Below are positions 25,888-37,220 of a stretch of DNA of 64,000 nucleotides, piece after piece (position 1 is the first letter of the stretch; every line of letters begins with the position of its first letter). This DNA is from Rhodobacteraceae bacterium Alg238-R152 (lineage in GTDB: Bacteria > Pseudomonadota > Alphaproteobacteria > Rhodobacterales > Rhodobacteraceae). The DNA lies in assembly GCA_900537125.1 (NCBI GenBank), contig UNRJ01000005.1, positions 372,001 to 436,000 of the forward strand, in the 5' to 3' direction. Below the pieces are notes generated by a model, which saw only the letters and a program-made list of their open reading frames with translations, did not search any database and had not been told where the DNA came from. Both the position numbers and the translations under genes were made by a program.

Positions 25888-26304
25888 TCAGCCCACCTGC
25901 TGATGCACCTCAATCACATTGCCTTCAGGGTCTTGGAAAAACACCTGATGCCATTCTTTGGCAAATGCCGTGCCATAATCGGAATAGGGCACATCATTGG
26001 CCTCAAGCACCTTCAGGAACGCTGCCAGATCATCGGTGCGAAAGGCAATATGCCCGCGATCCACCGGGTTGATCACCTGCCCGTTTACAAACGCCACATC
26101 CAGCCGCCGCTCCGCTAAATGCATCTGCATATCCCCATCCGTGGCAAAGCGGATTTTGCCATCATAGCCGGTATTTTCATCCGCCTTGGTACGCGGAAAA
26201 TCTTCCTGCGGAATATCCGCCAATCCCAACACCTTGGTGTAGAAATCATGCAGCCGATCCACATCGCGAGAGACAAAATTGATGTGGTGGAATTCGAGTT
26301 TCAT
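25888..26304 (-). CDS. VOC-superfamily (glyoxalase-like) protein
   Basis: A 138-residue single-module VOC protein with two beta-alpha-beta units: FHHINFVSRDVDRLHDFYTK opens the first, RGHIAFRTDDLAAFLKVLE the second, and the end DPEGNVIEVHQQ carries the conserved Glu. Candidate metal ligands are the His near residue 6, the His of RGHIAF and that Glu. Members include dioxygenases, glyoxalases and resistance proteins; the substrate is not predictable. ATG at 26304 has AGGGA upstream; an in-frame extension looks non-coding. Confidence 0.87.
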   Translation of the reverse strand: MKLEFHHINFVSRDVDRLHDFYTKVLGLADIPQEDFPRTKADENTGYDGKIRFATDGDMQMHLAERRLDVAFVNGQVINPVDRGHIAFRTDDLAAFLKVLEANDVPYSDYGTAFAKEWHQVFFQDPEGNVIEVHQQVG

Positions 26305-26470
26305 GGCGCGGTCCCTACGTTTAGATCTGCAACGACCGGTATTGAGACCACTCCGCCACACAAATTCAAGCGCAAACCGATCCGATCACACGACCCCGCG
26401 ACATAAACCGTCGGCTGTATCCACCCGAGTTCAATTTTTGAGAAATATCGCGCCCACGCCGACGGTCAAA

Positions 26471-27046
26471 TCACGCCCCGCCAGACCCACTGGCCCGCTT
26501 CACCATCTGCTCTTGAAACGGCGGTTCGCCAAAGCTGCGAAACTCCCCCGTGTCTGAGTTAAACGCCCAACGCGCCACCAGCAGCTGATATTCTTTGGTG
26601 TACAATTCCTGCGCGTCCTCATCGTCTACCTCAGCAACACGCATGCGCCAGGATCCCTGCACCCGCGTCGGCAGGCGCACCTCTTTGCGCGCCGGTGTTT
26701 TCGCAACACGGTAGTTTGCGTTGTCCCACTTGCGTTTCAGAAGTGTCACCAGCTCGCCAGACTCACTTTTGCGACGCCCGGCAAAAATAACATCGACCTC
26801 TACGTCATGGACGTCTCGCTTCACCAACCCTTTGATGATGACGTCGCCCCGAGAATTTTTGCCAAACTTCGGAATCAGATCGACCACCAATTCCGTAGGT
26901 GGCTTCTTGAACAGCCCCCCATCTTCGTAATCCGGGGTGATCAAGGAGGGGGTATCGATGCGTTTCTTCAATGTCCTGTTCTCGCCGCTGTGTTGGGGAA
27001 TGCAACCGATAGTGCTGCGCCAATAGTCGCTGAAACGCCTTAACAA
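26471..27046 (-). CDS. Hypothetical protein
   Basis: Up to 191 residues, not recognised. It is soluble, rich in charged residues, with alternating hydrophobic stretches that suggest beta strands (TELVVDLIPKFG, RGDVIIKGLVK, VEVDVIFAGRR). There is no ATG near the expected beginning; TTG codons at 27046 and 26971 are the candidates, and I list the longer one without strong support. It stands alone between the VOC gene and the PLP enzyme gene. Confidence 0.6.
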   Translation of the reverse strand: MLRRFSDYWRSTIGCIPQHSGENRTLKKRIDTPSLITPDYEDGGLFKKPPTELVVDLIPKFGKNSRGDVIIKGLVKRDVHDVEVDVIFAGRRKSESGELVTLLKRKWDNANYRVAKTPARKEVRLPTRVQGSWRMRVAEVDDEDAQELYTKEYQLLVARWAFNSDTGEFRSFGEPPFQEQMVKRASGSGGA

Positions 27047-27204
27047 TTGATTGTCAGCCTGCGGCCAGACGCCACAGCCAGAGCAATTTTCCGGCAGTCA
27101 AATCTGTGCGGATCCGCACAACGGTGATTCCACGTCTCTCCAAATCGCCACCGTCGTAAAACAGCCGCGATACAGACGTAATACCGACACGAGAATTGTA
27201 CCCG

Positions 27205-28347
27205 CTACTGCCCCAAGGCCTGCCCCAAATCCGCGATCAAATCTCCGGCATTTTCCGCCCCCACAGAGATCCGCAACAACGTTTCCGGAATGCCAGTATG
27301 TGGCTCAATGGTATGGCGGTGCTCCACCAGGCTTTCGACCCCGCCCAAAGACGTCGCGCGGTGAAAGAGCTTCATCTTTCCAGCCACTTGCAATGCTGTC
27401 TCTTTATTTCCCCTCACAAGGAAAGACATCAGGAACCCCGCTCCGCCCGGCATCTGCGCCTTGGCAAGCTCGAATTGCGGATGGCTCTCCAATCCCGGAA
27501 ACAGTACGTGGTCAACTTTTGGGTGGTCTTCCAGAAACCGTGCTATTTTCATAGCGTTAGCCACCATACGCTCCACCCGCAACGCCATCGTGCGCATACC
27601 CCGCAACAGCAGCCACGCCTCAAACGGCCCCATCACCGCGCCCGCACTGGCCCGGTCCACTTCGATCTCTTTCCAGACCGGCGTGACCTCTTTGGTCACC
27701 AACACCCCCCCCAGCACATCGGAATGCCCATTGATCACCTTGGTGGTGGAATGCATCACCATATCTGCGCCTAATTTCAACGGGTTGGTTAGGATCGGAG
27801 AGGCCGCTGTGCTGTCCACTGCCAACAGCGCCCCGCAGCCTTCCGCTGCCTTTTTCGCCGCCGCAACATCGGTGATTTTCAACCAAGGGTTCGAAGGCGT
27901 CTCCACCCAAACCACATTGGCGGGCCCTTGGGCACAAACCGTTGCCAAAGCCTCTGTGTCACTTGCATCCACCTCGTCGATAACAATCTGACGCCGCTCA
28001 CAAAAATCCCGAATCCACTTGGTTGTATTCCAATAGATACCACTTTGCACAATCACCCGCCCGCCACAGGGTACAGTGCGAAACAAAGCAGCTATCGCCG
28101 CCATACCAGAGGGAAACAAAAGCGCCGCATCTCCACCTTCAAGTTGCGCCAATACAGCTTCTGCCTGACGCGCCACATCATTGTGAGGGCGGGCATAGAT
28201 ATTGTTTTCATTCAGAGGGTTGTAATTCTCATCCCGCGCGAAAGTGGTCGCCGGCTGAATCGGTGGCACCACACCACCGCTTTGCTGATCAATTGCGCCA
28301 CCGGCCTGCGCCAACAACGTCTCCGGCATCATGTCTTTGAATTCCAT
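27205..28347 (-). CDS. Cys/Met metabolism PLP-dependent enzyme (cystathionine gamma-synthase type)
   Basis: A 380-residue fold-type I PLP enzyme of the trans-sulfuration family. Visible marks are the phosphate and ring-binding region FPSGMAAIAALF, the PSNPWLKITDV segment, the Schiff-base Lys203 in HSTTKVINGHSDVLGG and TSLGGVESLVEHR near the end. It could be a cystathionine synthase or lyase, or methionine gamma-lyase; these cannot be separated by eye. ATG at 28347 follows AGGGGAAG. It is divergent from rluE with 86 bases between. Confidence 0.9.
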   Translation of the reverse strand: MEFKDMMPETLLAQAGGAIDQQSGGVVPPIQPATTFARDENYNPLNENNIYARPHNDVARQAEAVLAQLEGGDAALLFPSGMAAIAALFRTVPCGGRVIVQSGIYWNTTKWIRDFCERRQIVIDEVDASDTEALATVCAQGPANVVWVETPSNPWLKITDVAAAKKAAEGCGALLAVDSTAASPILTNPLKLGADMVMHSTTKVINGHSDVLGGVLVTKEVTPVWKEIEVDRASAGAVMGPFEAWLLLRGMRTMALRVERMVANAMKIARFLEDHPKVDHVLFPGLESHPQFELAKAQMPGGAGFLMSFLVRGNKETALQVAGKMKLFHRATSLGGVESLVEHRHTIEPHTGIPETLLRISVGAENAGDLIADLGQALGQ

Positions 28348-28433
28348 GGTCTTCCCCTCACGGTCTTGCCGCGCACCAGACCGCAGAGAATGCAAACTTG
28401 CAACCCCAGCGCACGCCCGTGTAGGAGGATGAC

Positions 28434-28982
28434 ATGACCCGCGTGATACTCTTCAACAAACCCTTCGATGTGCTGTCGCAATTCACCGACAAAGGCCTCG
28501 ATGGTAGCAAACGCCGCACCTTGTCGGACTTTGTCGACGTGCCCAAAGTCTATCCCGCAGGCCGTTTGGACCGAGACAGCGAAGGATTGATGGTGCTCAC
28601 CGATGACGGAAAGCTCCAGGCCCGCATCGCTGACCCGCGCCACAAAACGGCCAAGACCTATTGGGTGCAGGTTGAGGGGGAACCCGACGATGCGGCGCTC
28701 ACGGCGCTATGCAAAGGGGTCGAGTTGAAAGACGGACTTACCAAACCTGCGAAAGCGCAACGCATTGACGAACCAGTAAATCTTTGGCCCCGCACCCCGC
28801 CTGTCAGGTTCCGAAAATCAGTCCCCGATTGCTGGATATCGCTGACAATCCGCGAGGGCCGCAACCGTCAGGTCCGCCGCATGACCGCTGCTGTTGGCCA
28901 TCCAACCTTGCGCCTTATCCGGGCACAGGTCGGAAATTGGACCCTTGATGGGCTAGAAACCGGGGCCTGGCGCGATGCCTAG
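28434..28982 (+). CDS. rluE: 23S rRNA pseudouridine synthase, RluE-like
   Basis: A 182-residue RsuA/RluE-type pseudouridine synthase without an S4 domain. It opens [13 protein letters not shown], has the catalytic Asp46 in [18 protein letters not shown] and the later [20 protein letters not shown]. The small size and missing S4 domain match RluE, which modifies U2457 (E. coli numbering) of 23S rRNA. TAGGAGGATGAC gives a strong ribosome site. Confidence 0.9.
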
Positions 28983-29085
28983 TGCATCAATCGCTTTTCC
29001 TGTGGATAAACACAACATATAGTAGACACCAACAAACCCGCGCCGTAAGAGCCGCGGCATTGGAACACGAGCAGGGACAACGGGC

Positions 29086-29895
29086 ATGGCACATATCATT
29101 GTGGTCGGAAACGAGAAGGGCGGCGCAGGCAAATCCACCCTGTCGATGCACATCGCCACCGCGCTTGCGCGCATGGGTCACAAGGTGGGCGGTATTGACC
29201 TCGACCTGCGCCAAAAAAGTTTTGGCAGCTACGTCGCCAATCGACGAAAGTTTCTACAGAAAGCCGGTCTCGACCTGCCCAGCCCGAACTATCACGACCT
29301 GCCGGAAGTTGATCAAAGCACGCTGCAACCGGGCGAAAACGTCTATGACCACCGCCTCTCAGCAGCCGTCTCGATGCTGGAGCCGGACAACGACTTTATC
29401 CTAATCGATTGCCCCGGTTCCCACACCCGATTGAGCCAAGTGGCACACTCTCTGGCCGACACTTTGGTGACCCCGCTAAACGACAGCTTTGTCGATTTTG
29501 ACCTCCTCGCCAAAGTGGATGCGGACGCCGAAAAAATCATCGGCCCCTCGGTCTACTCGGAGATGGTCTGGAATGCCCGCCAACTGCGCGCGCAGGCTGG
29601 TCTCAAGCCGATCGACTGGATTGTGATGCGCAACCGGATGGGCGCGCAACAGATGGTCAACAAAGAGAAAATGGGCAAAGCACTCGACCGCCTGGCCAAA
29701 CGCATCGGCTTTCGTGTCGCGCCTGGTTTCAACGAGCGTGTGGTCTTTCGCGAGCTGTTTCCACGGGGTCTGACGTTGCTGGATCTGCGTGACATTGGCG
29801 TGAAGCAGCTCAACATCTCCAACGTGGCTGCCCGGCAAGAATTGCGGGACCTGATTAAGGCGCTGAACCTGCCCGGTGTCTCGATAGATTTCTAA
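29086..29895 (+). CDS. mipZ: Division plane positioning ATPase MipZ
   Basis: A 269-residue ParA/MinD-type ATPase. It opens HIIVVGNEKGGAGKSTLSMH with the deviant Walker A (Lys11, Lys16) and has IDLDLRQKSF, ILIDCPGS and DSFVDFDLLAKVD, matching Caulobacter MipZ, as does the later GFNERVVFRELFPRGLTLLD. MipZ dimers on DNA form a gradient that keeps FtsZ away from the poles. The exosortase gene begins four bases after its stop, an odd partner that may share its transcript. Confidence 0.95.
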   Translation: MAHIIVVGNEKGGAGKSTLSMHIATALARMGHKVGGIDLDLRQKSFGSYVANRRKFLQKAGLDLPSPNYHDLPEVDQSTLQPGENVYDHRLSAAVSMLEPDNDFILIDCPGSHTRLSQVAHSLADTLVTPLNDSFVDFDLLAKVDADAEKIIGPSVYSEMVWNARQLRAQAGLKPIDWIVMRNRMGAQQMVNKEKMGKALDRLAKRIGFRVAPGFNERVVFRELFPRGLTLLDLRDIGVKQLNISNVAARQELRDLIKALNLPGVSIDF

Positions 29896-29899
29896 GACC

Positions 29900-31489
29900 A
29901 TGACATCGCGCGGCCAAGCGACCCAAGCTCCCGCCCGACCAACGCGCCTCATGACCATGGCAGCTTTGGCCGTTGCGGAATTGCTTCTGGTCATTCTAGC
30001 TTATCAAGTCATGGCTTCCATCGAATGTCGCCAGACCGAGATCGAAGCCGCCTGTCGCGCCCTGCGGTCGATGACCGCGCGTGGCCTGGCCGTGCTCACG
30101 GTGATGGCGCTGTATTTCTGGTTGAGGCCACACGCTTACCGCGCCCTCACGGACCGCACCGCAGACCAGCCTGGCCACCGTATGTGGTTGTTGGGTCACC
30201 TCTTGGGGTTGGCCCTGATTTTCTCGCCACTTCCTCTGTTTGGAGCTGCGGAAATCTCCCGCGCCTTCACACCAACCCTTATTTTGCTGACAACAGGTGG
30301 CGTGCTTACCGCTGCAGGCGCGGTTTTTTGGGTCACCTCCGCATCCACTTGGCGCAACTGGATGCGCAATGACAGTTACCTACTGCCCTTGGCCCTTCTA
30401 ATCGGCTTTCTGGTCCCGGACCTCGCAGACCTGATGCGCCCCTTGTGGGAATGGAGCACACTCAGCAGCCTGACTTTCTTCTTGGTCTTTTTGGTTCTGA
30501 CTCTCAGCGGGTTTGACGTCGGCGTGCACCCGCCCACCTACGAGATCGGTGTCGAAGGTTTTTGGGTGCAAATCGCCAGCCAGTGCTCCGGTGTTGAGGG
30601 CATTGCGCTGATCACCATCTTTATGGGCTTCTACGCCACGCTCATGCGTTTGGACCTGCGCCAAAAACGTTTCTGGCTCATCCTGTTTCCTTTGGCGGTA
30701 CTGGCAAGCTGGCTCTTTAACATCCTGCGCATTGCCATCCTGATTGTGATCGGCGCACGGGTGTCCCCGGAACACGCGCTCAACGGGTTTCACTCCTACG
30801 CTGGTTGGCTGATGTTCACGGCTTTGGCATTGGGCATTGTCTTGATCGCCCATCGCGCACAATGGCTGCACCGTGCGCCACTGCCCAAACATACAACTGC
30901 CCCCCTCCGCGAGGATTCTTTGGCAGCCAAGATAGTGCCGTTCATTGTGATGATGATGTCTGGAGTGTTTGTCTCCGCCTTCTGGCCCGAGCCCGATGCA
31001 GGCTACCCAATCCGCGCCGCTCTCATGGCTTTGGCGCTGCTTTTCTTCTTCCCAGCCCTCTGTCTGGTCTGGCGCAAACCTTCTTTGGAATCCGTTGCGG
31101 TTGGCCTTGTGATTGGTGTTGCCTGGATTATCACCGCGCCGACACAAAACCTCCCAATCACAGAGACACCTACCGTTGTCTGGATTGCCACCCGCCTGCT
31201 TGGCACAATTCTGTTGGTGCCAATCATCGAAGAGCTGTTCTTTCGCGGCTACGTGCTGCGCCGCCTGCACCGGGACAATGTGCTCTGGACAGTTGCTGCT
31301 GTTGCCATTTCCAGCCTGCTGTTTGGCCTGATGCACGACCGTTTGTTCGCAGGCACGCTGGCAGGTGTGGCCTTTGGCCTTCTCTACTTGCGCCGCTCAG
31401 AAACCAGCGACGCCATTGCCGCGCATGTGATAGCCAACGCCACCATCGCAATTGTGGCCCTACTGACAGCAAAATGGGCGCTCATCTGA
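29900..31489 (+). CDS. xrtE: Exosortase E fused to CPBP/CAAX protease (XrtE, VPEID-CTERM system)
   Basis: A 529-residue integral membrane protein with two enzyme halves. The N-terminal half is an exosortase with the catalytic triad Cys229 (SQCSGVEG), Arg277 (NILRIA) and His298 (FHSYAGW). The C-terminal half is a CPBP intramembrane protease with Glu444-Glu445 and Arg449 (EELFFRG), His479 (FGLMHDRLF) and His509/Asn513 (HVIANA). This fusion is the known exosortase E/protease type that recognises VPEID-CTERM proteins. A VPEID-CTERM gene lies convergent 37 bases away. The start is the ATG four bases after mipZ; another ATG at 29951 is possible. Confidence 0.94.
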   Translation: MTSRGQATQAPARPTRLMTMAALAVAELLLVILAYQVMASIECRQTEIEAACRALRSMTARGLAVLTVMALYFWLRPHAYRALTDRTADQPGHRMWLLGHLLGLALIFSPLPLFGAAEISRAFTPTLILLTTGGVLTAAGAVFWVTSASTWRNWMRNDSYLLPLALLIGFLVPDLADLMRPLWEWSTLSSLTFFLVFLVLTLSGFDVGVHPPTYEIGVEGFWVQIASQCSGVEGIALITIFMGFYATLMRLDLRQKRFWLILFPLAVLASWLFNILRIAILIVIGARVSPEHALNGFHSYAGWLMFTALALGIVLIAHRAQWLHRAPLPKHTTAPLREDSLAAKIVPFIVMMMSGVFVSAFWPEPDAGYPIRAALMALALLFFFPALCLVWRKPSLESVAVGLVIGVAWIITAPTQNLPITETPTVVWIATRLLGTILLVPIIEELFFRGYVLRRLHRDNVLWTVAAVAISSLLFGLMHDRLFAGTLAGVAFGLLYLRRSETSDAIAAHVIANATIAIVALLTAKWALI

Positions 31490-31497
31490 GCGCCCAT
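31474..31497. terminator. Bidirectional hairpin between xrtE and its substrate gene
   Basis: ATGGGCGCTC and GAGCGCCCAT form a perfect ten-pair stem with an ATCT loop. The xrtE stop codon lies in the loop and right arm. T runs are short on both strands, so termination would be modest. Confidence 0.6.
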
Positions 31498-31526
31498 CTA
31501 TGTTTCTTCAGCCTGTTGAGACTGGC

Positions 31527-31796
31527 CTAATTTTGTTTTTGACGACGACGGCGCAGTTCCCAAACCAGCGCCAGCGTGGCAAGCACAGCTGCCACAGCCA
31601 AAAGCCCAGCACCTGCATCGATTTCCGGAACAGCGTTTGAACCACCACCGGTGTTATCGCCACCGCTGCCGCCGCCCCACCAGCGCCACCACCAACCGGA
31701 CCAGCTGCCAGAATCCTGCGCAAAAGCTGCAGGCGCGTTAAGCATCACTGTCAAAGCTGCGACAATTGCAGCATTCGCTTTGTTCATCAGACCCAT
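31527..31796 (-). CDS. VPEID-CTERM sorting-domain protein, tryptophan/glycine-rich
   Basis: An 89-residue precursor. A signal peptide ends near Ala26 (NAPAAFA/QDSG). The exported middle is only about 29 residues: SGSWSGWWWRWWGGGSGG and more glycine. Then comes the sorting signal VPEIDAGAG (residues 56-64), a membrane helix and the basic tail RRRR. This is the layout of a VPEID-CTERM exosortase substrate. I chose ATG at 31796 because GGGAG lies seven bases before it; an ATG eight codons upstream is open too. Convergent with xrtE. Confidence 0.88.
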   Translation of the reverse strand: MGLMNKANAAIVAALTVMLNAPAAFAQDSGSWSGWWWRWWGGGSGGDNTGGGSNAVPEIDAGAGLLAVAAVLATLALVWELRRRRQKQN

Positions 31797-32005
31797 AAGA
31801 AAACTCCCGGACCTATCCATTTTTATTGCGCTAAAAATGCCATACGAAACCTACTCAACTCAAGCAATTTGCTGCCATTGCACTGTATTAGTCCAGCCCA
31901 GCCGCTCATTGTTGCGATGCTCAACACAATGGCGCGCGCACCACCATACTGTCGCCACCCTGTCATGATCCAAACCGCGAATCACCTTATCGGCGAGTCC
32001 CGCGA

Positions 32006-32443
32006 TCAGAGTCGCCCCGCCAATTTGAGCAGCATTGCCTTTAGCACCCGCATTTCATCGTCTGAAAGTTTGACCTGCAAGCTGCTCTCGTATTCTTGCG
32101 CCACCTCGCGAAGGTCACGATACACTTTTTCTCCCACAGGCGTGAGCTCCAGCCACTCCACCCGCCGGTCGTCTTCGCTGCGCGCACGTTTCACCAAGCG
32201 TCGGTCCGCCAATCGCTGCACCGCCCGACTGACTTTGGTTTTATGCACCTTACCTTTGGCCCCAATCTCGGTGGCGGTCAGTCGCCCAAAAATCCCAAGA
32301 TGAAACAGCACCCGCCACTCGCTGCGCAACAGCCCATAGCGATCTTTGTAGATCTGTTGAAAGCCAAGGCTGGCCTCTTCTGCTGCTTGATTGAGCAAAT
32401 AGGGCAGAAAAGCCTGCAAGTCGAAGTCATCAGGTTTTGTCAT
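32006..32443 (-). CDS. MarR-family regulator of the homogentisate genes (putative)
   Basis: A 145-residue MarR protein: [20 protein letters not shown] leads into the recognition part [22 protein letters not shown], then the wing [19 protein letters not shown]. It is divergent from hmgA with 79 bases between the start codons, and a TAGTT-N8-AACTA dyad lies there. MarR-type repressors of homogentisate genes are known from other proteobacteria, so this is the likely controller. AGGAGG sits 11 bases before the ATG. Confidence 0.88.
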
Positions 32444-32466
32444 TTTGCGCGCGTCCTCCTGCTTGT

Positions 32467-32484
32467 TAGTTACAAAAACAACTA
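32467..32484. promoter_or_regulatory. TAGTT-N8-AACTA dyad in the hmgA/marR promoter
   Basis: TAGTTACAAAAACAACTA contains exact inverted arms TAGTT and AACTA. It lies midway between the divergent MarR and hmgA starts and is the natural operator for the MarR protein. The link is inferred from position and symmetry. Confidence 0.55.
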
Positions 32485-32522
32485 TTACCACCGCAACCAA
32501 ATTCGAACTCAGGAGCGACCAC

Positions 32523-33878
32523 ATGACCAAGCACTCTGTTCCGACCCGCATGCAGAAGGCCCCTTCGATGGCGGGCCCACACGAAGGCTACATGCCCGGT
32601 TTTGGCAATGACTATGAAACCGAGGCCCTGCCGAATGCCCTGCCACAAGGCATGAACAGCCCGCAGAAATGCAATTACGGCCTCTATGGCGAGCAGCTCT
32701 CTGGCACCGCCTTCACCGCCGAAAATGTCGAACGCACATGGTGTTACCGCATCCGACCTTCGGTGAAGCACAACAACCGCTATGAGAAAATCGACGTGCC
32801 CTATTGGCAATCCGCCCCCAACGTCGATCCGGATCTGGGCAGCTTAGGCCAATATCGCTGGAACCCGGTGCCCCACACCGAAGAAGCGCTGACCTGGATC
32901 ACCGGCTTGCGCACGATGACATCCGCCGGGGACGTGAACACACAGGTTGGCATGGCCACGCACATCTACCTGGTGAACACCTCAATGGAGGATGATTACT
33001 TCTTCTCCGCCGATTCCGAACTACTGGTTGTCCCCCAAGAAGGTGTGCTGCGCTTCTCAACCGAGCTGGGCATCATCGACGTGGAACCCAAAGAGATTGC
33101 CATCCTGCCCCGTGGGCTAGTGTACCGCGTCGAAGTGCTCGACGGTCCGGCCCGTGGTTTTGTCTGCGAAAACTATGGCCAAAAGTTTGAACTGCCCGGT
33201 CGCGGCCCCATTGGCGCCAACTGCATGGCCAACCCGCGTGACTTCAAAGCCCCTGTTGCGGCCTATGAAGACCGCGAAGTGCCCTCCACCGTAACCGTCA
33301 AATGGTGTGGTCAATTCCACCGCGCCAATATTGATCAGTCGCCCTTGGACGTTGTCGCTTGGCACGGCAACTACGCCCCGGTGAAATACGACCTGCGCAC
33401 CTATTGTCCGGTTGGCGCCATCCTGTTTGACCACCCAGACCCGTCGATCTTCACCGTGTTGACCGCGCCCTCAGGCCAACCAGGCACAGCCAACATCGAC
33501 TTTGTCTTGTTCCGCGAGCGTTGGATGGTGGCCGAGGACACCTTCCGCCCGCCGTGGTACCACAAAAACCTCATGTCTGAGTTGATGGGCAACATCTACG
33601 GCCAGTATGACGCCAAACCGGAAGGCTTTGTTCCCGGCGGCATGAGCCTGCACAATATGATGATGCCACACGGCCCGGACAAAAACGCCTTTGAGGGTGC
33701 GTCTAACGCCAACCTTGGTCCGGACAAGCTCGACAACACCATGTCGTTTATGTTCGAAACCCGCTTCCCGCAGCACCTCACCAAATTTGCCGCCAACGAA
33801 GCGCCGGTGCAGGACGACTACATCGACTGCTGGACTGACATCGAAAAGAAGTTCGACGGCACCCCGGGCAAGAAGTAA
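32523..33878 (+). CDS. hmgA: Homogentisate 1,2-dioxygenase
   Basis: A 451-residue non-haem iron dioxygenase that opens the ring of homogentisate to maleylacetoacetate. Diagnostic stretches include [34 protein letters not shown], the jelly-roll part [17 protein letters not shown] and the C-terminal metal region with [19 protein letters not shown] and [12 protein letters not shown] (His and Glu ligands). ATG at 32523 has AGGAGCG upstream. It leads the aromatic catabolic cluster with fahA and maiA. Confidence 0.97.
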
Positions 33879-33899
33879 GCTCATGTGGATGGGGGCGTT

Positions 33900-33945
33900 G
33901 CCCCCGTCACAGCACACTGTGACTCCCCCAGGATATTTCTGGAAA
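33900..33945 (+). repeat. Interspersed palindromic repeat, copy 2
   Basis: GCCCCCGTCACA, six bases, TGTGACTCCCCCAGGATATTT and CTGG match copy 1 at 7552-7596 on the other strand. Upstream GGGGGCGTT gives a further hairpin. It lies between hmgA and the MBL gene and may act as a partial terminator or processing site inside the operon. Confidence 0.75.
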
Positions 33946-33990
33946 GTGAATGAATTGGGGGCGTTTGACACCCTTTTTTTGAGAAGACAC

Positions 33991-34848
33991 ATGAGCGCGA
34001 ACCAAGTCACTCTTCTGGGCACCAAAGGTGGCCCTGCCATCAGACCCGGCACCCGCATGCCCACCTCTATTCTGGTTGAGATGGATGGCATGACCATTCT
34101 TGTGGACGCAGGCTTGGGCGTGAGCCGCGGGCTGTGTGATGCCGGTGTGGCCCTGACCGATCTGGATGCCATCCTGATCACCCACCTGCATTCCGACCAC
34201 TATCTGGAACTTGGCCCCCTCCTGCACACCGCCTGGACCGCAGGGCTAAACAAAACCATCCCAATTTACGGTCCTGAAGGGCTGGATCACTATTGGGCCG
34301 GGTTCCTCAACGCCATGTCCTTTGACGTGGAGCTGCGCCTGCGCGACGAAGGCCGCCCGGCACTGGAACCATTGGCTCAAATCCATGTGTTAGAGCCGGG
34401 TCAGATGGACCTTGGCCCGCTCAAACTCACCACCCTGCGCAACGCACATCCGCCCATCACCGACAGCTATGCGCTGCGGTTTGATGGCGCACAGTACAGC
34501 GTTGTACTCTCCGGCGACACCGCGCCAATTGCCGAAATGGTCGAACTTGCCAAAGGCGCCGACCTGCTGGTGCATGAGGCGATGTTGTCGGCAGGCATCG
34601 ACGCGCTCTGCGCCCGTGTGGGCAACGGTGACGACCGCCTGCGCATCCACCTGGAACGCAGCCACACCCCCGCCGCCGAAGCCGGCCGCATCGCCACCGA
34701 AGCAGGCGTCAAACAGCTCGCCCTCAACCATCTCGTCCCTTGTGACGATCCCAACTTCACCGAGACCCACTGGCAGGAAGAAACCTCCCGCACCTGGTCC
34801 GGCCCCCTCTTCATCGGCACCGACGGGATGTCCCTCCCGCTCGACTGA
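33991..34848 (+). CDS. MBL-fold metallohydrolase
   Basis: A 285-residue metallo-beta-lactamase fold protein. The canonical zinc motif ITHLHSDHYLELG is intact, with SGDTAPIAEM supplying the bridging Asp and a late HLVPCDD providing the last His. RNase Z/arylsulfatase-like features are seen (TSILVEMDGMTILVDAGLG). It sits between hmgA and fahA; a role in the pathway, such as hydrolysing a lactone or thioester side product, is possible but unproven. Confidence 0.88.
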   Translation: MSANQVTLLGTKGGPAIRPGTRMPTSILVEMDGMTILVDAGLGVSRGLCDAGVALTDLDAILITHLHSDHYLELGPLLHTAWTAGLNKTIPIYGPEGLDHYWAGFLNAMSFDVELRLRDEGRPALEPLAQIHVLEPGQMDLGPLKLTTLRNAHPPITDSYALRFDGAQYSVVLSGDTAPIAEMVELAKGADLLVHEAMLSAGIDALCARVGNGDDRLRIHLERSHTPAAEAGRIATEAGVKQLALNHLVPCDDPNFTETHWQEETSRTWSGPLFIGTDGMSLPLD

Positions 34849-34869
34849 CCGCACAAAAAGGAAACGCGC

Positions 34870-36135
34870 ATGTCTTTGTTAAAATCCTGGATCGCAAGCG
34901 CCAACGACGCTGCCTGCCCCTTCCCACTCAACAACCTGCCGTATGGCGTGTTCTCCGTCGGCGATGGTGAACTGCGCTGTGGCACCGCCATTGGCGACCG
35001 CATCATCGACCTCACTGGTCTGGAGGAAATCAGCACCCTGCGCGCTGACCCGGACGCTGATGTTCTCGACGCACCGTATTGGAACGACTTCATGGAGCTG
35101 GGCCCAGAGGCTTGGGCGGCCTATCGCACAAAGCTTCAGAAAATGCTCTCAGCGGATGCCCCTGAAGACGTCCAAGAGGCGCTGACCTATTTCTCACTCC
35201 CCTTGGCCGATGCCACGCTGCACATGCCCATGGCGGTGAGTGAATACACCGATTTTTATGCAGGGCGTCACCACGCCACCAATGTGGGCACCATGTTCCG
35301 CGGCGCCGAAAACGCCCTGCCACCCAACTGGCTGCACATCCCGATTGGCTACAACGGCCGCGCCTCCTCCGTGGTGGTCTCCGGTACCGATATCCGCCGC
35401 CCTTGGGGGCAGCTCAAATCCCCAGATCACGACACACCCGCCTTCTTGCCCTGCCGTCGGTTTGACATCGAGCTGGAAATGGGCGCGATTGTTGGCCAAT
35501 ACTCCGACCACCCCGTGACCGTGCAAGAAGCTGACGACATGATCTTTGGCTATGTGTTGCTCAACGACTGGTCTGCGCGAGACATTCAGGCCTGGGAATA
35601 CCAGCCGCTTGGCCCGTTCCAGGCCAAAGCCACCGCCACATCGATCTCCCCATGGATCGTGACCAAGGCCGCGCTGGAACCCTTCCGCACCAACACGCCC
35701 AAGCGCGAATTTGAGCTGCTCGATCACCTCAAAGATGTCGGCCCGATGCTCTATGACATCGACCTGTCGGTGAGCATGGCCCCCGAAGGCAAAGACGCCA
35801 CCGAGATTGCCTACACCAATTACAATCAGATGTACTATTCCGCCGCGCAGCAACTGGCCCATCACAGCACCTCTGGCTGCCCAATGAACGCAGGCGATTT
35901 GCTGGGCTCTGGCACTATTTCTGGCCCAACTAAACCAGAGCGTGGCAGTCTTTTGGAACTCAGCTGGGGCGGAAAAGAACCCCTGACCCTTGATAGTGGC
36001 GAGACCCGTACCTTCATTGAAGATGGAGACACGCTCACCCTCCATGGCGCTGCCAAAGGGGACGGGTACACCATCGGATTTGGAGACTGTACCGGCACGC
36101 TTTTGCCTGCGCTTTCGGACCCTTTCGAAAGGTAA
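34870..36135 (+). CDS. fahA: Fumarylacetoacetase
   Basis: A 421-residue hydrolase that splits fumarylacetoacetate into fumarate and acetoacetate. It has the N-terminal SH3-like domain (NNLPYGVFSVGDGELRCGTA) and the catalytic domain with VSEYTDFYAGRHHATNVGTM, RFDIELEMGAIVG and VLLNDWSARDIQAWEYQPLG, which carry the catalytic His and the metal-binding acidic residues. AAAGG precedes the start. Downstream genes follow within a few bases. Confidence 0.97.
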   Translation: MSLLKSWIASANDAACPFPLNNLPYGVFSVGDGELRCGTAIGDRIIDLTGLEEISTLRADPDADVLDAPYWNDFMELGPEAWAAYRTKLQKMLSADAPEDVQEALTYFSLPLADATLHMPMAVSEYTDFYAGRHHATNVGTMFRGAENALPPNWLHIPIGYNGRASSVVVSGTDIRRPWGQLKSPDHDTPAFLPCRRFDIELEMGAIVGQYSDHPVTVQEADDMIFGYVLLNDWSARDIQAWEYQPLGPFQAKATATSISPWIVTKAALEPFRTNTPKREFELLDHLKDVGPMLYDIDLSVSMAPEGKDATEIAYTNYNQMYYSAAQQLAHHSTSGCPMNAGDLLGSGTISGPTKPERGSLLELSWGGKEPLTLDSGETRTFIEDGDTLTLHGAAKGDGYTIGFGDCTGTLLPALSDPFER

Positions 36136-36140
36136 GACCT

Positions 36141-36692
36141 ATGCCTGCGCGCCCTCGTTACGTCGGATATATCGCACAAAGTCTGGACGGTTATATCGCC
36201 ACGCCGGACGGCGGGGTGGGCTGGCTCGATCCGTTTAACGCAGCCCTTGCCGAATGCAGCTGCGAAGATGCTGGCGGCTACAATGCCTTCATCGAAGAGG
36301 TGGACGCGGTTCTGATGGGCCGCGCCACCTATCGTCAGGTTTTGGGCTGGGGCTGGCCTTATGGCGACCGGGCAGGCTACGTGCTGACCCACCGCCATGA
36401 CTACAAAGGCGACCACATCACCGCTGCCGGTCCGATCGATGGGCTGCGTGCCGCGATTGAAGAAAACGGCCACCAGAAAGTCTGGATCATGGGCGGCGGA
36501 GAAACCCAACGCGCAGCGCTGGATGTGGGCATGTTTGACGCGCTTTCCATCTTTGTTATGCCCACGATCTTGGGTGATGGCCTGCCCTGTTTTGCCAAGG
36601 GGGCACAGCACAACCTAACCCTGGAAAAATCGAGCGAAAAGCCGGGCGGCATTCTGCAATTGGACTACACTTTCAAGGATCGCGCCGCATGA
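36141..36692 (+). CDS. Dihydrofolate reductase family protein
   Basis: A 183-residue RibD C-terminal/DHFR-like reductase: YVGYIAQSLDGYIATPDGGV opens it, VLMGRATYRQVLGWGWPY carries the helix after the NADPH loop, and KVWIMGGGETQRAAL is the dinucleotide-binding glycine loop. Members of this group are NADPH reductases of unknown substrate. It lies five bases after fahA. Confidence 0.88.
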   Translation: MPARPRYVGYIAQSLDGYIATPDGGVGWLDPFNAALAECSCEDAGGYNAFIEEVDAVLMGRATYRQVLGWGWPYGDRAGYVLTHRHDYKGDHITAAGPIDGLRAAIEENGHQKVWIMGGGETQRAALDVGMFDALSIFVMPTILGDGLPCFAKGAQHNLTLEKSSEKPGGILQLDYTFKDRAA

Positions 36693-36701
36693 GCAACCCA
36701 C

Positions 36702-37220
36702 ATGGTGACGCTCCACGACATGGCCAAAAAACGCATGATTGAGTTCCTGACCGGCTGCACCCATTTTGGACACACCCAAGTGCTGCGTAAAGGCAATCGC
36801 CCGTTTGCTTCCGTTGAAGAAATGGACGCCACGCTGATCGCCAATTGGAACGCGGTGGTTGGCAAAGACGACACCGTATTTCATTTGGGTGATTTTGCCT
36901 GGCCACGGGACCGCCCCCGTGAACCGTATCTCGCACAGCTCAATGGCACCATCATCTGCCTCAACGGCAACCGTGACGAAGCTGACTGGGGTCGTGACCT
37001 GATCACACTCAAACGCAATGACCGCGAAATTGTGCTGTTTCACTATCCCATCGAGGAATGGAACGGCTGGTGGCGCGGCACCTTGCATTTCCACTGCCAC
37101 ACCCACGACACCGCATTCCACAGCGCCCCGCGTCGTTGCAATGTTGGCGTCGAAGCTCATAATTACACGCCCATCCGTCTCGACTGGGCGGTTGACCAAC
37201 TCTTGCAAAAGGACCGCTGA
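36702..37220 (+). CDS. Metallophosphoesterase family protein
   Basis: A 172-residue calcineurin-like phosphoesterase. Metal-binding motifs are visible in order: GCTHFGHTQVLR (in place of the usual DxH), VFHLGDFAW (GD), CLNGNRDEAD (GNxD-like), LFHYPIEEW and HFHCHTHDTAF (GHxH-like). The first motif has Cys-Thr-His where most members have Asp-x-His; relatives with T-x-H exist. The start could also be ATG at 36720. Confidence 0.85.
   Translation: MVTLHDMAKKRMIEFLTGCTHFGHTQVLRKGNRPFASVEEMDATLIANWNAVVGKDDTVFHLGDFAWPRDRPREPYLAQLNGTIICLNGNRDEADWGRDLITLKRNDREIVLFHYPIEEWNGWWRGTLHFHCHTHDTAFHSAPRRCNVGVEAHNYTPIRLDWAVDQLLQKDR

Follow-up and report, generated by a model that had tools for sequence, protein, structure and literature searches.

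Exosortase E (XrtE) and the VPEID-CTERM tag are known by name as a family in NCBIfam (TIGR04162 with TIGR04161), and fusions of EpsH with a CAAX-type protease have been in print since 2006, according to the available part of that article (PMC1569441). In the open PMC library neither VPEID-CTERM nor "exosortase E" occurred and "xrte" appeared only in unrelated texts; no relevant paper on VPEID-CTERM/XrtE, and none testing XrtE, was found there, in line with a preliminary description of this DNA that had called the physiological role essentially undescribed. Comparable systems have been described: MrtJ and one JDVT-CTERM protein likewise form a two-gene pair (PMC11980579, in the part available), and XrtD/VPLPA-CTERM, from the same bacterial family, likewise combines an exosortase with a tripartite C-terminal tag.

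The window (the whole 64,000-nucleotide stretch of DNA analysed here, from a marine bacterium) carries an XrtE/VPEID-CTERM pair that is real and complete, belongs to the named family as an ordinary member and differs from it in nothing. The pair, its parts and the gene upstream are as follows:

29086..29895, + strand: mipZ, context only (Pfam MipZ, 391.4 bits); its stop codon precedes xrtE by 4 bases
29900..31489, + strand: xrtE, 529 aa, an exosortase E with a fused CPBP glutamate protease (TIGR04162, 609.6 bits)
30068..30853, + strand: exosortase half, residues 57-318 (PF09721 match), with Cys229, Arg277 and His298
31181..31441, + strand: CPBP/Rce1-like half, residues 428-514 (Pfam match), with Glu444, Glu445, Arg449, His479, His509 and Asn513
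31527..31796, - strand: VPEID-CTERM mini-protein of 89 aa, with no other in the genome (TIGR04161, 48.6 bits; whole-genome searches)
31719..31796, - strand: signal peptide, residues 1-26, ending in A-F-A (set by eye; the A-x-A position is common to relatives)
31632..31718, - strand: passenger, residues 27-55, 29 residues, Trp- and Gly-rich (sequence and comparison)
31530..31631, - strand: tail, residues 56-89, with VPEID, membrane helix, Trp-Glu and basic cluster (TIGR04161 match; lowest pN/pS of the parts)

The two genes are convergent with a stop-to-stop gap of 37 bases (31490-31526), and each exceeded its curated NCBIfam cut-off, so that the arrangement and both identities given in the preliminary description were borne out. 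XrtE matched TIGR04162 over residues 21-529, spanning both halves (609.6 bits, cut-off 150), as well as TIGR03008 pepcterm_CAAX (98.6 bits, cut-off 81.05), Pfam Exosortase_EpsH (66.3 bits, cut-off 25.7) and Pfam Rce1-like (63.6 bits, cut-off 22.4). It has both the exosortase Cys/Arg/His triad and the residues and fold of a CPBP glutamate protease; the catalytic residues named beforehand (those listed above, Asn513 apart) were all found at their expected positions, and the triad and the CPBP residues were invariant in 51/51 aligned rows, a few of which are copies of one genome. Proteolytic or transpeptidase activity is predicted for XrtE. The charge pattern of the helices, a rough hydropathy estimate of topology, set the triad at the membrane's outer face, with Glu444/445 lying more towards its inner half. 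A PDB profile search with XrtE returned nothing at E 1, and Foldseek with the whole predicted model nothing below E 2; an Rce1 structure was absent among the Foldseek matches listed, which excludes nothing. The best-matching named relatives of the window xrtE were from Shimia (83-84% identity), and the genome was therefore assigned to Shimia. The mini-protein matched TIGR04161 over residues 56-85 (48.6 bits, cut-off 33), with VPEID at residue 56 followed by a hydrophobic helix and a basic end, and a putative N-terminal signal peptide was clear when judged by eye from the sequence. An alternative upstream ATG at 31820 would extend the protein to 97 aa; the MGL start was kept in 7/11 loci (L033-L043).

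The expectation of a single substrate held at the level of the genome, which contains one XrtE, one exosortase of any kind and one VPEID tail. The curated model recovered only this tail, the next best match (15.7 bits) having a stop inside, and a broader profile built from 25 tails recovered it at 1.9e-16, with the next match at E 0.76; VPLPA-CTERM gave no match in this genome at E 0.001. Among 248 genomes of the bacterial family, the VPEID tail was present in 31 (34 at E 0.01 minus the three weak matches G104, G218 and G183), XrtE over cut-off in 32, and both in 29 (Fisher p = 4e-32, with genomes taken as independent and relatedness not corrected). The tail gene lay within 1 kb of xrtE in 27 of the 29 genomes with both, and 2.5 Mb away in G034. 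XrtE and the mini-protein are very probably a dedicated pair, with three genomes counting against it: G034, on account of that distance, G134, which has a VPEIS mini-protein but in which no exosortase was found, and G048, where a similar tail is accompanied by an XrtD-like exosortase.

Over a wider range, a class-level sample of 385 genomes contained four with XrtE over cut-off, the same family accounting for three of these and G298 lying outside it, and xrtE was present in 12 plasmid records, all annotated as such by NCBI. TIGR03008 was detected in 6/299 genomes of a phylum sample, namely three XrtE genomes of the family, G888, G844 and G720. The last of these, from outside the class, carries a complete XrtE fusion over cut-off (192.3 bits), next to a 53-residue frame in which only a few residues separate the signal peptide from an APEID tail, which no NCBIfam model matched at E 0.001. 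G888 and G844 carry free-standing TIGR03008 CPBP proteins, with no exosortase detected by an XrtE-half profile in the 18 kb around their genes (a farther one could be missed). As to why a CAAX-type protease is fused to the sortase, a question raised in the preliminary description, such fusions had been reported in 2006 (PMC1569441, available part) and the protease half also occurs free-standing.

By its sequence, the mini-protein appears to be nearly all sorting signal, with almost no mature protein. The passenger, counted from the signal peptide (end set by eye) to VPEID, ranged from 5 to 35 residues over 33 relatives, with a median of 24 residues and 12.5% Trp in the Shimia group (n = 15), a median of 11 residues, no Trp and 9.9% Cys in the other group (n = 16), and 5 and 7 residues in two outlying genomes. 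This count was made before the plasmid cases were added; it left out the four G027 mini-proteins, the G216 frames, the G141 large proteins, G017, L041, L044, L045, L046, the Shimia relatives and G048, and it retained G134, which lacks XrtE, and L051, whose assignment to the second group came solely from its tail. Exactly two Cys were present in 11/33 passengers, against 3.9 in shuffles (0/20000 as high, rows taken as independent). Three of the four mini-proteins of G027 stand in tandem adjoining xrtE (L117, 10288-11273), none with an evident signal peptide. The XrtE locus of G141 (L112, 11290-17393) contains several large VPEV-tailed proteins with frames of 203-539 aa, one of them with FG-GAP repeats, and the XrtE family thus also accompanies ordinary-sized proteins.

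VPLPA-CTERM proteins from 61 genomes of the same family served as control, with 73 frames over cut-off of 181-431 aa (median 243), whereas the VPEID frames over cut-off (n = 25) were of 63-268 aa (median 96); both were measured from stop to stop, which inflates both lengths. An acidic residue at most three positions from the basic cluster was observed in 23/25 XrtE-type tails and in 0/23 VPLPA tails, and a Trp in 18/25 versus 0/23, in small sets comprising hand-chosen XrtE-type tails and the VPLPA tails of those among 30 loci whose motif a script could place. The same control ruled out a stronger-than-usual conservation of XrtE tails across genera (0.53 vs 0.52). Within the Shimia clade, pN/pS was 0.068 for the tail, 0.40 for the passenger and 0.59 for the signal peptide (13 loci), and 0.108 for mipZ and 0.35 for xrtE (12 loci); the tail was the lowest of the five, and only this ranking is usable because synonymous sites were near saturation.

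A one-enzyme, one-substrate surface-processing module with two cuts is the explanation that we favour, and taken as a whole it stands at about an even chance; every biochemical step is one that we infer. The mini-protein would be exported by Sec and lose its signal peptide, staying in the inner membrane via the tail helix with the basic end inside. On the outer face XrtE would use Cys229/Arg277/His298 to cut at the VPEID motif, probably by transpeptidation, and the Trp/Gly-rich peptide of ~29 residues would be passed to an acceptor or released, while the fused glutamate protease would make a second cut in the same helix, nearer the cytoplasmic end. The acidic residue of the tail and the two invariant active sites suggest two cuts, without showing them, and a second cut would account both for the acidic motif, often Trp-Glu, that precedes the basic cluster and for the lack of variation at the two sites. 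Two cuts on this helix are a tentative proposal, which we would place somewhat below an even chance.

With a single cut, the exosortase half alone would act on the mini-protein, and the CPBP half would serve another substrate or the general removal of leftover helices. Such a division is consistent with the resemblance of the CPBP half to the free-standing TIGR03008 proteins of G888 and G844, for which no exosortase was detected in the surrounding 18 kb, and with the ordinary-sized tagged proteins that adjoin the G141 XrtE; the invariant CPBP residues and the unlikeness of XrtE tails to VPLPA tails at the inner end argue against it, and we regard it as an unlikely account. It is distinctly improbable that the short passenger is a peptide signal, cut at both ends, released and sensed by other cells or competitors: no receptor or exporter gene was seen beside the window pair, passengers across genera are alike in composition and not in sequence, and the VPEV tails of G141 sit on large proteins, even if passengers of 5-35 residues with little common sequence, the paired or absent Cys of the other group (two in 9/16, none in 7) and the occurrence of MroQ, a CPBP protease, among the weak matches of XrtE point in that direction. 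The tail helix could itself be the working part, its regulated cleavage releasing or removing a membrane signal that the passenger merely delivers. The strongest purifying selection does fall in the tail (0.068 vs 0.40 in the passenger), but a recognition signal would be constrained as well, and across genera these tails show no greater conservation than those of VPLPA type; we regard a working helix as very improbable.

The surroundings of the pair were compared with those of its relatives. The position of xrtE beside mipZ, part of the preliminary description, is correct for the window, with mipZ 4 bases upstream, but is not a general trait, being found in 15/50 related loci, among them named ones from Shimia, Phaeobacter and Alg231_30. 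marR and hmgA follow in 14 of these 15 loci, in Phaeobacter with an intervening gene, and xrtE loci without mipZ have different neighbours. The mipZ linkage is lineage synteny, and mipZ as a functional partner of xrtE was ruled out, since only those 15 loci are linked. Similarly, the reported absence of polysaccharide genes applies around the pair (26000-37000, by eye) but not to its annotated relatives in Leisingera sp. S132, Rhodovulum sp. P5, Alloyangia pacifica and Limimaricola variabilis, which lie in or near polysaccharide genes; further relatives' loci contain genes, recognised by eye, that we take to be of this kind. The mini-protein of Leisingera sp. S132 is Gly/Asn-rich, as in Phaeobacter.

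In a tree of 45 XrtE rows, 24 Shimia-type and 14 adhesin-linked rows lay each on one side of a branch (support 100/99), while 7 rows carried neither label, some of them nested inside. In the second of these groups a large gene, with a frame of 471-1732 aa in XrtE genomes, adjoins the VPEI mini-protein and xrtE. Such genes, which encode large SdrD_B/Big_9 proteins whose C-terminal region resembles a thioester domain, occur in Rhodobacteraceae-type genomes and plasmids; examples are:

L053, 1816-5445
L049, 2863-5526
L196, 4164-7061
L201, 5166-7187

SdrD_B domains were found in 8/9 adhesins scanned (two of the nine from genomes without XrtE), and no Sec signal was evident by eye. In the C-terminal domain one Cys (in a [YF]C motif), a Q-x-A-[IV]-W motif, a later QP-hydrophobic motif and a final C-x-C were invariant in 13/13 rows, which thus all have the conserved Cys and Gln motifs of a thioester domain (TED), as defined in the available part of PMC4450167. 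For the PF08341 thioester domain, 10 of the 13 rows gave matches with E no higher than 1, the best at 4.1e-7. The domain is probably thioester-like, with a candidate thioester bond; this grading reflects PF08341 row scores that, among those shown, ran from 14.1 to 20.6 bits, all below the cut-off of 22, a PDB profile search that gave no TED and one chance match, and motifs that resemble those given for TEDs.

The adhesin-domain profile matched 15/248 genomes, 12 of them with XrtE where about 2 were expected (Fisher p = 9e-10, genomes taken as independent and relatedness not corrected). In 10 of the 12, adhesin, mini-protein and xrtE follow one another in that order on the same strand; G228 has a convergent xrtE, and G146 has the genes split over two contigs. 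The adhesin genomes without XrtE were G134, G001 and G063. In G134 the VPEIS mini-protein and a thioester-like adhesin lie side by side (L114, 14717-16990) and no exosortase was found in the genome; the enzyme may have been lost, or another may be used. In G001 (L169, 5016-9580) the same type of adhesin precedes a VPLPA-CTERM protein (26.7 bits, cut-off 25.35), and another exosortase tag may stand in place of VPEI. As an independent check, 10 of the 12 plasmid records were inspected, data not used to find the link (H6 and H7 were left out, both P. pantotrophus like H5). A VPEI mini-protein was near xrtE in 9/10 plasmid loci, the exception being Rhodovulum sp. P5, and the adhesin was present in 4/10, all four repeating the arrangement of adhesin, then mini-protein, then xrtE. 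In Rhodobacter sp. CZR27, genes for type I secretion were found immediately upstream. The final C-x-C was kept in three of the four plasmid adhesins, that of Limimaricola ending in DCLIL, and was also missing from the G063 adhesin. In the passengers of the adhesin group Cys were paired or absent (two in 9/16, none in 7/16, one in none), and the passengers of the four plasmid adhesin loci had, by eye, 2, 0, 2 and 2. A disulfide between the passenger Cys pair and the adhesin C-x-C was not supported as a rule, since 7/16 passengers have no Cys, and is further weakened by the two adhesins without C-x-C. The window's own Shimia genome (G000) and G210 had no such adhesin at E 1e-5 and lie outside the adhesin-linked group.

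The adhesin-linked group offers a genomic hint of the purpose of the XrtE family. XrtE systems may be machines for anchoring or assembling surface adhesion, the sorted protein being a minimal anchor and not the cargo, a reading that we hold as possible though rather doubtful. In the second group, the large thioester-type adhesin, which has no evident Sec signal and may leave the cell by type I secretion, would be held at the surface through the XrtE-processed VPEI mini-protein or assembled with it. For the Shimia group, this reading would make the Trp/Gly-rich passenger the binding part, or have it hold an unlinked partner.

The value of the window pair lies in its minimal make-up: with a single exosortase and a single substrate of 89 residues, the sorting question comes down to two genes, and a second protease with a fitting tail motif yields the sharp prediction that one helix is cut twice, once towards each end. 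To what was known, the comparison added a substrate nearly devoid of mature protein, a tail motif that suits a second protease and a sister group linked with what is probably an adhesin. Among known systems, the C-terminal half of XrtE matched MrtJ at 34.6 bits and the myxosortase core at 27.7 bits, both weak and below cut-offs; MrtJ and the myxosortase MrtX differ from XrtE in having no exosortase half, and VPEID tails lack the Cys that is invariant in the JDVT and MYXO tags (PMC11980579, in the part available). XrtD/VPLPA-CTERM differs in its 1-18 tags per genome in the 16/61 genomes with any, in frames of 181-431 aa and in having no acidic residue before the basic cluster. As to the adhesins of the second group, no report linking thioester adhesins and exosortases in Gram-negatives was seen in the available text of the open PMC matches listed, and in a 2015 TED survey matches were exclusively in Gram-positives, as given in the available part (PMC4450167). 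These adhesins, and only they, resemble Gram-positive TED adhesins in their [YF]C, Q-x-A-[IV]-W and QP-hydrophobic motifs and in their SdrD_B domains, and differ from them in a C-terminal instead of N-terminal position of the domain, the lack of LPXTG and their alphaproteobacterial hosts.
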